Assembly: GCA_025966315.1 (NCBI GenBank)
Contig: JAOPUZ010000036.1
Location: forward strand, 1 to 49,292
Source of the DNA: Frankiales bacterium
GTDB lineage: Bacteria > Actinomycetota > Actinomycetes > Mycobacteriales > Jatrophihabitantaceae
Reading direction: 5' to 3'
Length of the DNA stretch: 49,292 bases
The translations under genes and the position numbers were made by a program. The notes under the pieces were generated by a model, which was not told the origin of the DNA, did no database searches, and saw only the letters and a program-made list of their open reading frames with translations. Position 1 is the first letter of the stretch; every line of letters starts with the position of its first letter. Below are positions 1 to 10,288 of this stretch, in pieces.

Positions 1-192
1 ATCCGAACCGCCCGCTCACGCAACTCCGGCGGGTACCTCTTCGACGACGCTGATGACATGACCCCATCCTCCTCAAAGGATCGAGTCTCCGGACTAGCCG
101 GGGCGGTTCAGAACGAGCTTGCGATGAACGCTGCAGCGTCGGAGCTCGCCACAGTAGCCAAGAACAATTCTGGACGCGGAGGAGAAGCGTAG
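1..192 (+). CDS. C-terminal fragment of an unknown protein (5' end outside window)
   Basis: Frame 1 is open from the first base to a TAG at 190-192 and gives 63 residues, ending in a polar tail rich in Ala, Ser, Asn and Gly. I do not recognise the family. The stop shares one base with the GTG start of the downstream nucleotidyltransferase, so the genes are probably translationally coupled and functionally linked. By analogy with CBASS-type operons this could be an effector or accessory gene, but the visible part shows no motif to support that. Confidence 0.55.
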   Translation: MRTARSRNSGGYLFDDADDMTPSSSKDRVSGLAGAVQNELAMNAAASELATVAKNNSGRGGEA

Positions 193-1064
193 TGGCTGGT
201 ACTACGGCTCAAGCATTCACAGACTTTATGGAAGCCATCACGATCACAGAATATCAGAAGACGAGCATTGTGGGTGGCCGTAAGGCTGGCATAGCCAGGG
301 ACCTCGGCGAAGCATTTCCGGCATCCTCCGATCTACCATTGGTGGAAGTAAGGTTGATGGGATCAGCCGCAAAGGGCACGATTATCAGACCTATCGATGA
401 TGTCGATGTCGTCGCGATTTTCTCTAACGTGAAAGACGCATGGCGGGACAAATATCAGTATGATTCGCAGGCATTCCTCTACCGAATCAAGAGAGCTTAC
501 GACGGGTATAGCGTCGCGCAGGTAGGAGCGCGTGGCCAGGCGGTTCGCGTCTTCTATGACGGCGGCGGTCACGTTGACGTGGCACCGGTCTTCATTAAGG
601 GAGACGGTGTGTATCACCTTCCGTCAGGAACCGGTGGCTGGATTCTGACTGCGCCGTTCATCGCGAATGACTGGTTCGCGGGGCGGAATCGTGACCTCGA
701 CTACCACCTTGCTCCGTTGGTCCGCATGCTTAAGAAGTGGAATCTCGCTCACTCTAAGCGGCTGCAATCATTTCACCTCGAGACCATAGCGGCGCACACG
801 TTCTCTAGTGTATCTGGGAATCGTCGTGTTGGGCTCCAGAAGTTTTTTGAGTGGGGTGGAACTCATCTGAGTGTGAAAGATCCCGGCGAGCAATCTGGTC
901 AACTCAATGATTATCTTAGCTGGCAAGACGAGCAGGAAATAAAAACGTCCTTCGTCGCAGCATCGAACCGTGCGCTTAGGGCCATCGAAGCTGAAGCTAG
1001 CGGTGATCATGACGAAGCGAAACGTCTCTGGCGCATCATCCTCGGATCGAGCTTTCCGTCATGA
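192..1064 (+). CDS. CD-NTase-like (SMODS-type) nucleotidyltransferase
   Basis: A 290-residue protein of the DNA polymerase beta-like nucleotidyltransferase superfamily. The active site is visible as Gly57-Ser58, Asp70-x-Asp72 and a third acidic residue, Asp129 (in HVDVAP), the GS...DxD...D arrangement of oligonucleotide cyclases and related enzymes. A helical segment around 171-200 (PLVRMLKKWN...SFHLE) matches the conserved C-terminal core of CD-NTases. The start is GTG, overlapping the upstream TAG. The stop overlaps the ATG of a second NTase (ATGA). Base composition is more AT-rich than in the rest of the window, which suggests transfer. A signalling or defence role is inferred; the enzyme could instead modify a protein or RNA. 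Confidence 0.75.
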   Translation: MAGTTAQAFTDFMEAITITEYQKTSIVGGRKAGIARDLGEAFPASSDLPLVEVRLMGSAAKGTIIRPIDDVDVVAIFSNVKDAWRDKYQYDSQAFLYRIKRAYDGYSVAQVGARGQAVRVFYDGGGHVDVAPVFIKGDGVYHLPSGTGGWILTAPFIANDWFAGRNRDLDYHLAPLVRMLKKWNLAHSKRLQSFHLETIAAHTFSSVSGNRRVGLQKFFEWGGTHLSVKDPGEQSGQLNDYLSWQDEQEIKTSFVAASNRALRAIEAEASGDHDEAKRLWRIILGSSFPS

Positions 1065-1932
1065 GCAAGTCTGTGGCAACGGGCTTCAGTCAATTCTTGG
1101 ACTGGCTGACGCCGAGCGTTACCGAGCGCTCGCATGCGTCCACACATCGCATAGGCATCGAAGCGAAGCGAAGCTGGAGGCTAAGTTCGGTCTGTTTGGT
1201 ATGTTTGAGAGTGGCTCGTTTCGTCATGGTACCGGCGTCAGTGGCAAGAGTGATGTCGACTACTTCGTGTCACTTAAGTCGGCGAAACCCATCTGGTCAA
1301 GCAGCATCTTGTCCGCGGTCCGAGATGCCCTGAAGGAAAGGTACCCGACAACCTACATCCACTCATCGAGCCCTGCGGTGGTCTTGGAGTTTGGGGGCGG
1401 ATACGAACGTGTGGAGATCATCCCTGCCTATTTTAAAGATTCCGTTGCGGGCGTGTCACGCTACGAGATACCTGGCGTTGTCACTCAGTGGGTCGAATCG
1501 GCTCCGGGAGCTCACCTGAAGTACGTAAATGACTGCAACGCAATCCCTACAAGTGGTGGGGCGAAGTCCCTCGCGCGGCTGGCGAAAGCATGGAAGTATT
1601 ACCGCGATGTGCCGATCTCGTCGTTTTACCTCGAGATGCGCGCCGCGAATTATATGGCGAAACAGAGTACCCTTAATTACGCGCTGGACGTCTACTACTT
1701 CCTGCGTAGTCTGGAAATCGCCGGTCTTGCTCCGATGAACGATCCGACTGGAAGCACAGGCAGGATCAATCCATGTTCAAGCGATGCCAATCTCCTGGCT
1801 GCTAAATCCCGACTAGCTACAGCTGTTGGGCGAGCGTCTCGGGCTAAGGAGGCCTACATGCGAGATGATATCGCGGCCGCCTTTGCCGAGTGGAATTTGT
1901 TGTTCAACGGCCAATTTCCTAATTACTACTAA
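1061..1932 (+). pseudogene. Second CD-NTase-like nucleotidyltransferase, frameshifted at a GAAGC repeat
   Basis: The ATG at 1061 overlaps the previous stop (ATGA) and starts a typical NTase N-terminus (SQFLDWLTPSVTERSHASTH). At 1160-1174 lie three GAAGC copies; removing one joins this frame to the rest of the gene as ...IEAKLEAKFGLFGMF, giving 288 residues, close to the 290 of its neighbour. Downstream are the active-site elements GSFRHGTGVSGKSDVDYF, an acidic third position (VEIIP) and the conserved SFYLEMRAANYM helix. As written the gene is out of frame, unless an internal start or slippage rescues it. It is paralogous to the upstream gene, so the pair may normally act as partners. It may be decayed, phase-variable or a sequencing error. 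Confidence 0.75.
1160..1174 (+). repeat. Pentanucleotide tandem repeat (GAAGC)x3 in the NTase gene
   Basis: Three perfect GAAGC copies sit exactly where the reading frame breaks. Two copies restore a single open frame over the whole gene; three copies shift it. A change of one unit (5 nt, not a multiple of 3) is the classic basis of slippage-driven on/off switching, though three copies is short for a hypermutable tract. Confidence 0.8.
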
Positions 1933-2646: not shown

Positions 2647-3222
2647 TTAACCCGGGTCCCGCTGGGTGGGCCTGACCGGCGGCCGTAGGGCCACCGCTGC
2701 TCGGAGTAGGTAGTTGCGAACCGAACCGTAGGAGAGCCCAGCCTGCGCTGACACCTGTCGCAGCGACAGCCCGGTTCGGTATAACTGCACGATGCCCTCG
2801 ATTTGCCGTTCGTCGGCTGCTCGCCGAGGACGCAGAACTACCTCGGCTCTGCCTAGGTGATGTCGGACGGTGTGCGCGTGAACGCCGAAGTACCGGCCCA
2901 GCTGCTCCATTGAAACGCCCTCCTCATAGCCCTCGATCAGGGCGCTAATCTGGGCCGGCTGTAGCTTGGTGTTGGGCCGGTAGGTAGTCGAGGGCGCGCT
3001 GCCTTCTAACACTCGGCCGCCTATTGCGTCACGCTTTGACGGAGTCAAGCGGGACTGATTCATGGGCAGACCGGTCATTTCAACTGCGGCCAATGCCCTT
3101 TGCAAGTGTTTCGGGAAGTGTGAAAGGTGTTCTCTCAGGTGCACTTGGGTGGTCTCTTCTAAACTCCGCCGAACGTGATCCGCCGCTGGGGATCTTTTCG
3201 TTTGATGGGCTCTCTGCGTCAT
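2647..3222 (-). CDS. Double helix-turn-helix DNA-binding protein
   Basis: A 191-residue protein whose C-terminal ~110 residues hold two HTH units: LQPAQISALIEGYEEGVSME...AHTVRHHLGRA and ERQIEGIVQLYRTGLSLRQV...YGSVRNYLLRAAV. It is paralogous in layout to the HTH gene just downstream and lies in the same frame. The N-terminal ~70 residues show no recognisable fold. ATG 3222 has a modest AGGA four bases upstream; internal ATGs at 3078 and 3063 would give a shorter and perhaps more natural protein. Such proteins are usually found near serine recombinases, but no recombinase is visible here, so the region may be a mobile-element remnant. Confidence 0.5.
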   Translation of the reverse strand: MTQRAHQTKRSPAADHVRRSLEETTQVHLREHLSHFPKHLQRALAAVEMTGLPMNQSRLTPSKRDAIGGRVLEGSAPSTTYRPNTKLQPAQISALIEGYEEGVSMEQLGRYFGVHAHTVRHHLGRAEVVLRPRRAADERQIEGIVQLYRTGLSLRQVSAQAGLSYGSVRNYLLRAAVALRPPVRPTQRDPG

Positions 3223-7153: not shown

Positions 7154-8110
7154 ATGGATGTTGAGCCGGCCACCGCGATGATGGCCCTGCGCGCGCATGA
7201 GCGCGGTGGGCCCGAGCGACTCGTTTACGAGGAGGCGCCGCGGCCGATTCCCGGCCCGGATGAGGTCTGTGTTGCTGTGCGGGCAGCCGCTATCACGTTC
7301 GCCGAACTGACCTGGCCAGAGACGTGGGAAAGCGCTGGCATCGATCGGACGCCGGTAATCCCGTCGCACGAGTTCGCCGGCGTGGTCGCTGAGGTTGGCC
7401 CGGATGTAATCGATCTGACGGTAGGTGACTCGGTCTTCGGGCTCGTTCCCTTCGACCGCGATGGGGCGGCGGCTGAGTTTGTGGTCGTCCCGTCCGCCTG
7501 TGTCGCACGCAAGGAGGCCACGGTCTCCGATGTCGACGCGGCCGCCGCGGTCCTGCCCGCGCTGACCGCCTGGGAGGCGCTGCGCGATCAGACGCATTTG
7601 GTTGCTGGTCAGCGGCTCTTGATCAGGGGCGGAACCGGTGCGGTCGGGGCATTCCTCACCCAGTTCGGGCACCAGATAGGCGCCGAGGTCACCGTGACGG
7701 TGACCTCGGCGTTGGCCGAGGCCCGCGCAAGAAAGCTCGGTGCTGACCATGTGGTCGTGAGCACTCCGCACCCAGAGGCACGCGATCTGCAAGCGTTCGA
7801 CGTCGCAATCGACGCTGTTGGCGATGAGGTGCCGGAATGGATGTATGCCGCGGTCCGTCCGGGCGGTCAACTCATCGTTCTCCAAGAGCCCCCGAGCCAG
7901 GAGCTGGCCGACAAGTACGGCGTGAGCGCGGCCTTTTTCGTCGTCCACGCCCGCCGGGAAAGGCTGGACGAACTGGCCGCGTTGATCGCCGCGGGTCACG
8001 TCGAGGTGGCAATCGCTCAGACGTTTCCGCTATCTGCTGGCAAGGCGGCCTACGAGAGCGGGTCGCGGCCAAAGCCCGGGCCTGGCAAGACCGTGATCCT
8101 CGTTCCCTAG
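7154..8110 (+). CDS. NADPH:quinone-type oxidoreductase (zinc-independent MDR family)
   Basis: 318 residues. A GroES-like N-terminal domain (PGPDEVCVAVRAAAI, PSHEFAGVV) is followed by a Rossmann domain with the dinucleotide motif GGTGAVGAFLTQ and the GADHVV segment typical of medium-chain reductases. The zinc-ligand cysteines of true alcohol dehydrogenases are absent, so a quinone or enone reductase activity is more likely. GGAGG at 7142-7146 supports the ATG at 7154. It lies 101 bases after the GlxA-type regulator on the same strand and may be co-regulated. Cytoplasmic; physiological substrate unknown. Confidence 0.8.
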   Translation: MDVEPATAMMALRAHERGGPERLVYEEAPRPIPGPDEVCVAVRAAAITFAELTWPETWESAGIDRTPVIPSHEFAGVVAEVGPDVIDLTVGDSVFGLVPFDRDGAAAEFVVVPSACVARKEATVSDVDAAAAVLPALTAWEALRDQTHLVAGQRLLIRGGTGAVGAFLTQFGHQIGAEVTVTVTSALAEARARKLGADHVVVSTPHPEARDLQAFDVAIDAVGDEVPEWMYAAVRPGGQLIVLQEPPSQELADKYGVSAAFFVVHARRERLDELAALIAAGHVEVAIAQTFPLSAGKAAYESGSRPKPGPGKTVILVP

Positions 8111-8350
8111 CCGGCAAATTCGCTGAACGCCGCCTGCGATGATCGAGGACCACCTGGGCCGGCCATGATGGCGGCAGCGTGCGACCTTGGTCGCCAATTT
8201 CTGTGATTTCCACCCATGCCCGGCAGATCCGCCCTATCCTCCGCACGGAGGTCGAGTTCATTGAGCATGCGGTTCGGTAGCTGTCGGCGGGTCGGATCCG
8301 AACACACGGCAGGCGGTGCATCCGGCGGAAGGTCTCTGCACTCGGCGAGG

Positions 8351-10288
8351 ATGCGAATAGTCAGTGTTTGCTTGGTGATCCTGTGTGCGTTGCTGTGCGT
8401 GACGTTGGTGGGCGCACCAACGGCGAGCGCCGACGACATCGGGACGATTAGCGGGACGGTGACAACGGAGGGCGATCCGAGCGCAGTGGCCGACATTCTC
8501 GTCGTGCTGTCATCAAGCGCGTCGCCCGATCTGTCTGTCGCGCCGGACGGCACCGGCCAGTTCGAGTTCGACGGTCTCGCGGACGGTTCCTACATCGTGC
8601 ACTTCCAGGTGCGGGGCGCGCATGCCGGCGAATACGTCGACCAGTGGTGGGACGGCGCCTCCGGTGCTAACGCGACGATGGGAGCTCAACCGATAGTCGT
8701 GACCGGCGGCCAGCCCGTGTCCCTCGCGCTCAGCACCCTGTTGCTCGTTCGTTCGCCGACGCCGGTCATTCCGGGAGCGGCGACCGTCGGCATGACGTTG
8801 TCGAGCACGATCGGAACCTGGTACCCGGTGCCCGACAGCTTCAGCTATCAGTGGTTTGCCGGCATCCAGCCCATCCTCGGAGCGACCGCAGCGTCCTACG
8901 TCGTGGCTGGCGCCGACGTGGCCCAGCAGCTGAGCCTGCAGATCACAGCCATGCGGAGCGGGGCGGACCCGATCACCGTTCCAAGCAACCTCACCAGCCC
9001 CGTCGCGCCGGGCGTGATCTCGGTGGTCGCACTGCCGCAGATCAGCGGCCTCGAGCGGGTTGGATCGGCCCTATCCGGGAGCAACCCGTCCTGGGCGCCG
9101 GTCCCGACGAACGTGTCGTACCAGTGGTATCGGGGCTCGGCGGCGATCAACGGCGCCACCGCGACCAGCTACCTGCTGGGCGTAGCCGATCTAGGGCAGC
9201 GTGTTTCGGTACGGGAGACTGGTTTCGCCGTCGGCTACGGCACGGTCGTAGTTACCAGCTTGCCGACCGAGCCCATCGCGGCCGGGGTATTCGCCGCGGT
9301 CGTACCAGTGATCAGCGGGTCCCTGGGTGTCGGCAAAATTCTGACCGCAACGCCAGGACACTGGACGCCACCGGCGGCGTTCCGTTACCAGTGGTATCGC
9401 GGGACTGTGCCCCTCGTCGGGGCGACCGGTTCGAGCTATCGTGCTGTCCTGGCAGATGGTGGCACCCGGTTGCGAGTCGCGGTTACCGCGACCAGTGCTG
9501 CTTACACGTCGGCGACTGTCTACAGCGCCTACACCCCGATCGTGCCGCGGCCGCCCGTGACTCCAGGCGCTCCTAGAATCGTCGGCAGCTCGCGCTTCGG
9601 CGGGGTTCTCACGGCCGCGCCCGGAGCTTGGGGACCAGCTGGTGTGACTATCAGCTATCAGTGGTACGTCGGCTCGACGCGCATTCCCGGCGTGACCGGC
9701 CGTGCTCGCAGCTACCGGCCGCCGGCCTCGGCTGTCGGTCAACTGGTCCATGTCGCTGTCACCGGCAGCCGGACGCAGTATGTCTCGCTGACCCGGAACA
9801 GTCTGGCGGTGCGCGAGGTCGCGGCGCGGTTCGCGTCCATACCAGCGCCCACGATAATCGGGGTGGCCAGATCCACAGCGGTGCTGACGGTTCGGGCCGC
9901 TCAGACCGTACCCGCCGCAACGCTTCATTTCCAATGGCGGGCGAACGGTCGCGTGGTGGGTACCGGTGCGCGCTATCGGGTGCGTCCCACCGACGTGGAT
10001 CGGCGGCTGACCGTCGTGGTCATCGCCACACGTACGGGCTACGTGACCGCCAGCCGATCGTCGGCCGCGACTGCGATCGTCGGCGGCCAGGCGTACCCGA
10101 ATTGCACGGTGTTGACCGCGGCTTATCCACACGGCGTCGCGAAGATCGGCGTCACGCGCGACCACGTGGGTAATTCCTACCGCGCGCTGAAAGGACCGCC
10201 GTTCTTCTCGACCACCCTGTATAACCTCAACATTCGCGACAACCACGACCTAGACCGCGACCACGACGGAATCGCCTGCGAGCGTTGA
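8351..10288 (+). CDS. Secreted multi-repeat protein with C-terminal excalibur calcium-binding domain
   Basis: About 645 residues from the ATG at 8351, which opens directly into a signal peptide (MRIVSVCLVILCALL...ASADD). The frame stays open upstream to 8216, but that part lacks a signal-like start. After a carboxypeptidase-regulatory-like beta module (GTISGTVTTEGDPSAVADI) come about five repeats of ~88 residues, each marked by an F/YQWY/F core (YQWFAG, YQWYRG twice, YQWYVG, FQWRAN), an Ig-like extracellular module. The end (YPNCTVL...LDRDHDGIACE) is an excalibur motif with a Ca-binding DxDxDG loop and paired Cys. Likely a wall-associated or secreted adhesin-like protein; partner unknown. Confidence 0.75.
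   Translation: MRIVSVCLVILCALLCVTLVGAPTASADDIGTISGTVTTEGDPSAVADILVVLSSSASPDLSVAPDGTGQFEFDGLADGSYIVHFQVRGAHAGEYVDQWWDGASGANATMGAQPIVVTGGQPVSLALSTLLLVRSPTPVIPGAATVGMTLSSTIGTWYPVPDSFSYQWFAGIQPILGATAASYVVAGADVAQQLSLQITAMRSGADPITVPSNLTSPVAPGVISVVALPQISGLERVGSALSGSNPSWAPVPTNVSYQWYRGSAAINGATATSYLLGVADLGQRVSVRETGFAVGYGTVVVTSLPTEPIAAGVFAAVVPVISGSLGVGKILTATPGHWTPPAAFRYQWYRGTVPLVGATGSSYRAVLADGGTRLRVAVTATSAAYTSATVYSAYTPIVPRPPVTPGAPRIVGSSRFGGVLTAAPGAWGPAGVTISYQWYVGSTRIPGVTGRARSYRPPASAVGQLVHVAVTGSRTQYVSLTRNSLAVREVAARFASIPAPTIIGVARSTAVLTVRAAQTVPAATLHFQWRANGRVVGTGARYRVRPTDVDRRLTVVVIATRTGYVTASRSSAATAIVGGQAYPNCTVLTAAYPHGVAKIGVTRDHVGNSYRALKGPPFFSTTLYNLNIRDNHDLDRDHDGIACER

Follow-up and report, generated by a model that had tools for sequence, protein, structure and literature searches.

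The stretch of DNA analysed here (the window; 49,292 bp) corresponds to the complete contig 42 in a draft assembly of 77 contigs (4.56 Mb, 95.81% complete). At the left end of this contig, a 63-codon gene tail (1-192), cycA (192-1064) and cycB follow one another in this order, and cycB is divided over two reading frames. The features are listed below.

1..192, + strand: upstream gene tail, the C-terminal 63 codons of a gene truncated at the contig end, with a weak match that may mark it as the end of an S-4TM effector
192..1064, + strand: cycA, an intact CBASS oligonucleotide cyclase (CD-NTase) of 290 aa, assigned by PF18144, PDLC00823 and its catalytic residues
1061..1159, + strand: N-terminal piece of cycB, 33 codons in the first frame (PDLC00776 positions 1-36, E = 3.6e-4)
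1159..1174, + strand: (CGAAG)3.2 array of 16 bp, equivalent to (GAAGC)3 at 1160-1174; the site of the frame break
1174..1932, + strand: C-terminal piece of cycB, 252 codons and a stop in the other frame, with GS...DVD...VEI motifs (PDLC00776 positions 37-287, E = 6.1e-99)

The TAG of the upstream tail overlaps the GTG start of cycA (TAGTG), and the ATG of cycB at 1061 overlaps the cycA stop codon (ATGA, 1061-1064). GC content was 0.53-0.56 across the first 2.25 kb versus 0.64-0.73 past 3.25 kb, in keeping with the left end being an acquired segment. Just 3' of the cyclases, on the reverse strand (2647-3222), the window encodes a protein with helix-turn-helix/sigma-70 region 4-like repeats (HTH_58, Sigma70_r4_2).

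Two divergent cyclases and the upstream gene tail

The cycA frame is open from its GTG start over 290 codons, and its product matched SMODS in a Pfam profile search (PF18144; E = 1.7e-14, 54.8 bits against a cut-off of 26.5) as well as the PADLOC cyclase profile PDLC00823 over its whole length (residues 1-290; E = 1.5e-91). The C-terminal piece of cycB also matched SMODS (PF18144; 44.3 bits, cut-off 26.5). The NCBIfam CBASS cyclase models gave matches below the cut-off only (108.2 and 82.4 versus 200). The GS, the DxD and the third acidic residue are present in both enzymes of the window. G57, S58, D70, D72 and D129 of cycA were invariant in 12 of 12 aligned cycA sequences, as were the GS, both Asp of the DxD and the third acidic residue in 11 of 11 aligned cycB sequences; judged by these residues, both cyclases of the intact relatives seem to be catalytically active. 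In a PDB profile search, the closest solved structures for both enzymes were CD-NTases of the CdnC/CdnD kind (6p82, 6p8u, 6p80), along with other CD-NTases. The sequence-only reading had described a tandem CD-NTase-like pair coupled by ATGA, with GS and DxD cores in both genes, as a possible signalling or defence module. Frames, motifs and profile matches agree with that pair, and the Pfam, PADLOC and PDB profile searches identify both genes as CBASS cyclases, in a two-cyclase operon that recurs elsewhere.

The two genes had also been called paralogous, a term that holds in a deep sense only and not for close copies: cycA and cycB are ~26% identical and form separate deep clades in a 38-row tree, with the window's cycA inside the cycA clade. 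The pair therefore did not arise when one gene was recently duplicated in tandem, an origin that we rejected. Note that this tree carried a long-branch warning on the core genes of family f32 (described below) and on G287; the placements used are independent of those rows.

The one candidate for an effector in the window's operon is the 63-codon tail, which matches S-4TM weakly. Residues 37-56 of the tail aligned to C-terminal positions 287-306 of the S-4TM profile at 5.4 bits, a score that ranked first against 2000 shuffles (best shuffle 5.3). BLASTP of the tail against one S-4TM found nothing, and no match was obtained with PADLOC at 0.001 or with Pfam at 1; this alignment is suggestive only of the tail being the end of an S-4TM effector. 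Protein and PF18159 searches found no S-4TM elsewhere in the assembly, and the search for an effector remnant in the window returned weak matches only (best E = 0.046). The TAGTG junction between the tail and cycA is of the same type as the S-4TM/cycA junction of one relative (L048).

Operons of the relatives

Ten of 11 cycA relatives (nine genomes and one plasmid) have the gene in a compact cycB - S-4TM - cycA operon. The three genes were on one strand, close together or overlapping, in 9 of 10 scanned loci (L042-L051), whose hosts are Antribacter soli (L042), two Microbacterium, Rhodococcus, Tessaracoccus, an unclassified actinomycetote, Propionicimonas, Cellulomonas carbonis (L049) and Nocardioides; the order is the same on the Arthrobacter plasmid pJ349-116. 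Note that these ten loci come from a named-genome scan with the cycA alignment via two short peptide patterns, which was not exhaustive, and that most genome searches scored at most six candidates per genome. The exception, L050 (Arthrobacter, cycA at 48-50%), has S-4TM - cycA without cycB, so that an effector lies beside the cyclase in the three-gene operons of 10 of the 11 relatives and, as S-4TM, in L050. In the latter locus, a partial G123-type cyclase whose C-terminal part is missing (7833-8684, - strand) is convergent with the S-4TM - cycA operon and abuts it.

S-4TM and cycA overlap by ATGA in 8 of the 10 operons (L042-L047, L051 and the plasmid), by TAGTG in L048 and by GTGA in L049. 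The S-4TM protein was PF18159 in all four examples examined and PADLOC 4TM in the one examined. Over the ten operons, pairwise identities of the three proteins were correlated (r = 0.93, 0.95 and 0.91; 0 of 5000 permutations each), which shows that the three genes are co-inherited, co-inheritance not being interaction.

The cycB piece of the window pairs with the cycB of G040 (support 100/98), apart from the cycB of the three-gene operons. Directly upstream of G040-type cycB, a SLATT 2TM gene was found in eight loci (L030, L031, L034, L040, L090, L091, L093 and L094), and cycB - S-4TM without cycA was found in three others (L039, L041 and L089). Because SLATT - cycB and cycB - S-4TM both occur without cycA, cycA, as the second cyclase, seems to have been added to cycB-type enzymes, and this in two or more arrangements. 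Since the window's cycB groups with SLATT-associated cycB, the window operon may be a different pairing, independent of that in the three-gene operons. The PDLC00823 family as a whole includes single-cyclase systems; the single cyclase of this family in G123 is 27% identical to cycA and lies beside S-4TM, with no cycB match.

Close relatives of cycA were rare in the collections searched. Among 396 genomes of the phylum, cycA was found at 1e-75 in the window's own genome only, and 394 genomes of the class searched with the cycA alignment gave only this genome and 31 of family f32, the latter with a distant core gene. The genome-contig scan with the single cycA returned 15 stretches and no relative, the viral contigs scanned with cycA alignments gave no match, and phage records gave one distant cyclase in one search and none in another. 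The distant gene of f32 encodes a CD-NTase ~35% identical to cycA and is present in 33 of 35 genomes of that family (L052-L080; e.g., L056:1495-2358). In the 12 usable aligned rows (L080 was dropped for a wrong reading frame), it has His instead of the third catalytic Asp (DVHLVPAF), and the GS and first acidic pair are kept; such a change at the metal site is unusual for a CD-NTase that is near-core. At the one f32 locus examined, an adjacent CBASS effector was not recognised by eye.

The frame break in cycB

The match to the PADLOC profile PDLC00776 passes from the 1061 frame (positions 1-36) to the 1174-1929 frame (positions 37-287) within the repeat region, indicating that the frame break sits there; the first frame itself stays open past 1159 until the stop codon at 1331-1333. 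The aligned N-terminal piece ends at 1159 and the C-terminal piece starts at 1174; the window has 14 nt between them, versus three residues (9 nt) at this site in 14 of 14 aligned relatives, and therefore a net 5 nt were gained within the (GAAGC)3 array. The stretch 1061-1929 is 869 nt long, which minus 5 gives 288 codons. Alignment, profile positions and arithmetic thus confirm the earlier statement that the break lies within three GAAGC units and that removal of one unit would restore a 288-residue protein.

The N-terminal piece of cycB is ~52% and the C-terminal piece 64% identical to the G040 cycB. In the latter comparison, third codon positions differed most (0.58 versus 0.27 and 0.22), and sequence constraint is still visible in the broken gene. 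No further lesion was seen in the remaining 252 codons, where the frame is without a stop and the catalytic motifs are kept, which points to a recent loss or an error and led us to reject old decay. Decay or error had been named as alternatives to a switch, and they fit better than it does, except that additional disabling mutations, the sign of old decay, were looked for in the 252 codons and none were seen. The break is explained by ordinary recent loss through duplication of 5 bp or else by an error close to the end of the contig.

These two explanations were weighed against a phase-variable switch, in which reversible changes in GAAGC copy number would switch cycB on in some cells of the population and off in others. 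The break lies exactly inside a perfect tandem array, the remainder of cycB is intact, and few perfect 5-bp x 3 arrays occur in the sequence surveyed: two in the window versus 0.1 per window expected from 40 first-order Markov simulations, and four in 489,227 bases of retrieved loci, three of these being the cycB array itself, retrieved again. The repeat 15-mer was found once in the assembly, as was a reversed control. However, comparison of repeat number showed tandem GAAGC at the site in none of 14 relatives, with at most one unit (L044), and the 10 intact three-gene operons among them code freely through it. Three 5-bp units are also few and short for a contingency locus. Furthermore, of 11 other genomes with a member of this cyclase family, three have it broken by unrelated lesions (G426 has two in-frame TAG, G220 has one and G202 has an insertion; the stop flagged in a G020 member is the natural gene end), in contrast to cycB of the three-gene operons, which is open in 10 of 10. 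The literature searched for CBASS with phase variation gave, in the excerpts returned, incidental co-mentions only. The number-switchable cycB of the sequence-only reading thus did not hold up, and phase variation was rejected as the main reading because the repeat is absent from 14 of 14 relatives; we regard it as very improbable rather than excluded, because a single-lesion state is also expected of a switch.

An assembly or consensus error, with cycB intact in the organism, is an unlikely but more serious candidate: the genome is a draft of the 77 contigs and 95.81% completeness given above, the break is 1.2 kb from the contig end, and cycB has no other lesion, although a 5-bp tandem gain is atypical of short-read or homopolymer errors. 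A working cycB could also be made from the two frames by programmed frameshifting or internal re-initiation, since both frames are open across the break and an in-frame ATG is present at 1201, just 5' of the GS motif. However, AAACCCA at 1285 was the sole X XXY YYZ heptamer in frame within 1061-1333, and it lies past the catalytic motif; the relatives have no frame change at the site, and re-initiation at 1201 would drop an N-terminal helix region that the aligned relatives have. With no suitable in-frame heptamer found before the break, programmed frameshifting was rejected, and we consider production of cycB from two frames the least credible of these explanations.

Proposed working and known systems

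We consider it probable (about 0.75) that what can be seen at this locus is one end of a type I-like CBASS anti-phage operon with two different oligonucleotide cyclases, of the order effector (cut off) - cycA - cycB, in which cycB was lost or misassembled. The gene 5' of cycA would be the effector gene, possibly an S-4TM, truncated by the contig end. The 5-bp tandem duplication, a common slippage lesion, would have inactivated cycB, unless an assembly error near the contig end accounts for it, and the intact cycA could suffice to run the system, provided that there is an effector. In characterised CBASS, infection activates the cyclase, and the cyclic oligonucleotide opens a membrane effector so that the cell dies or stops growing. 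By family membership, phage infection is predicted to trigger synthesis of cyclic oligonucleotides by both enzymes of the intact relatives, and these would act through a common S-4TM membrane effector that halts the infected cell when it opens; an anti-phage function of the window's locus is predicted on the same grounds.

The cyclase families (PDLC00823 and PDLC00776) and the effector families of the relatives, S-4TM (PF18159) and SLATT, are those of type I CBASS. Type I CBASS has one CD-NTase and one effector, and an excerpt of the review PMC10419184 gives one synthase and one Cap gene for most of its operons. In contrast to this single cyclase, two were found in the window and in 10 relatives, and these are of different clades, with one effector per operon in the relatives. 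No description of a two-cyclase CBASS was found in the literature searched, whose scope left out the key CBASS classification papers, and for this reason novelty in print is not established; the pairing recurs in other bacteria and appears to be little studied. The broken cycB of the window alone matters little, being one more lost defence gene. The recurrent pair, divergent and catalytically conserved, departs from the usual description of CBASS as one cyclase plus one effector, and raises the question of whether the second signal serves redundancy, a second trigger or inhibitory control.

The simplest idea would be that two triggers or two signals feed one effector. More tentatively, cycB - S-4TM - cycA could be a distinct two-signal CBASS, in which the two cyclases, both catalytically competent and each from its own clade, act on a single pore-forming effector without being redundant; we think this possible, although the odds are against it. 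The two nucleotides might, for example, both be alarm signals, each serving as a backup for the other when phage sponges and nucleases are at work; alternatively, one might keep the effector closed and the other raise the alarm, as in Panoptes. If such a two-signal reading is true, the loss of cycB in the window changes the system and does not merely weaken it. Inhibitory control by one cyclase would be a fair possibility, and redundancy, non-redundancy and inhibitory control are expected to look alike at the level of sequence. According to an excerpt of PMC12657218, Panoptes (OptS/OptE), which is often found beside CBASS, has a membrane effector that a constitutive nucleotide can keep inactive. 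The likeness lies in the idea, taken from that excerpt, that a defence effector can be acted on by a second nucleotide synthase; however, OptS is an mCpol and not a CD-NTase, and inhibitory signalling is no more than a possibility for the operons described here.

By cycA, the window resembles plasmid pJ349-116 of Arthrobacter sp. J3.49 (NC_019339.1; L038), with 62.8% identity and a cycB homologue in the operon. The plasmid differs in having the order cycB - S-4TM - cycA with an intact cycB of the S-4TM lineage, whereas the window has cycA - cycB with a broken cycB of the SLATT lineage. By cycB, the window resembles the SLATT - cycB systems (G040, G033, G446, G334, the Streptomyces plasmid L040 and the viral contig L094), with the G040 gene nearest (64%); in these, the SLATT 2TM gene lies directly 5' of cycB, whereas the window has cycA in that place. 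One SLATT - cycB pair (L094:4466-5861) is on a 44-kb IMG/VR viral contig, and this CBASS type therefore appears to be carried by phage or prophage. In G033 (L031:7307-7706), cycB is intact and the match to the adjacent SLATT effector is spread over two frames, so that here the effector, not the cyclase, looks broken. In G040 (L030:8738-9658), the SLATT - cycB pair is followed by an Abi_C (PF14355) protein.
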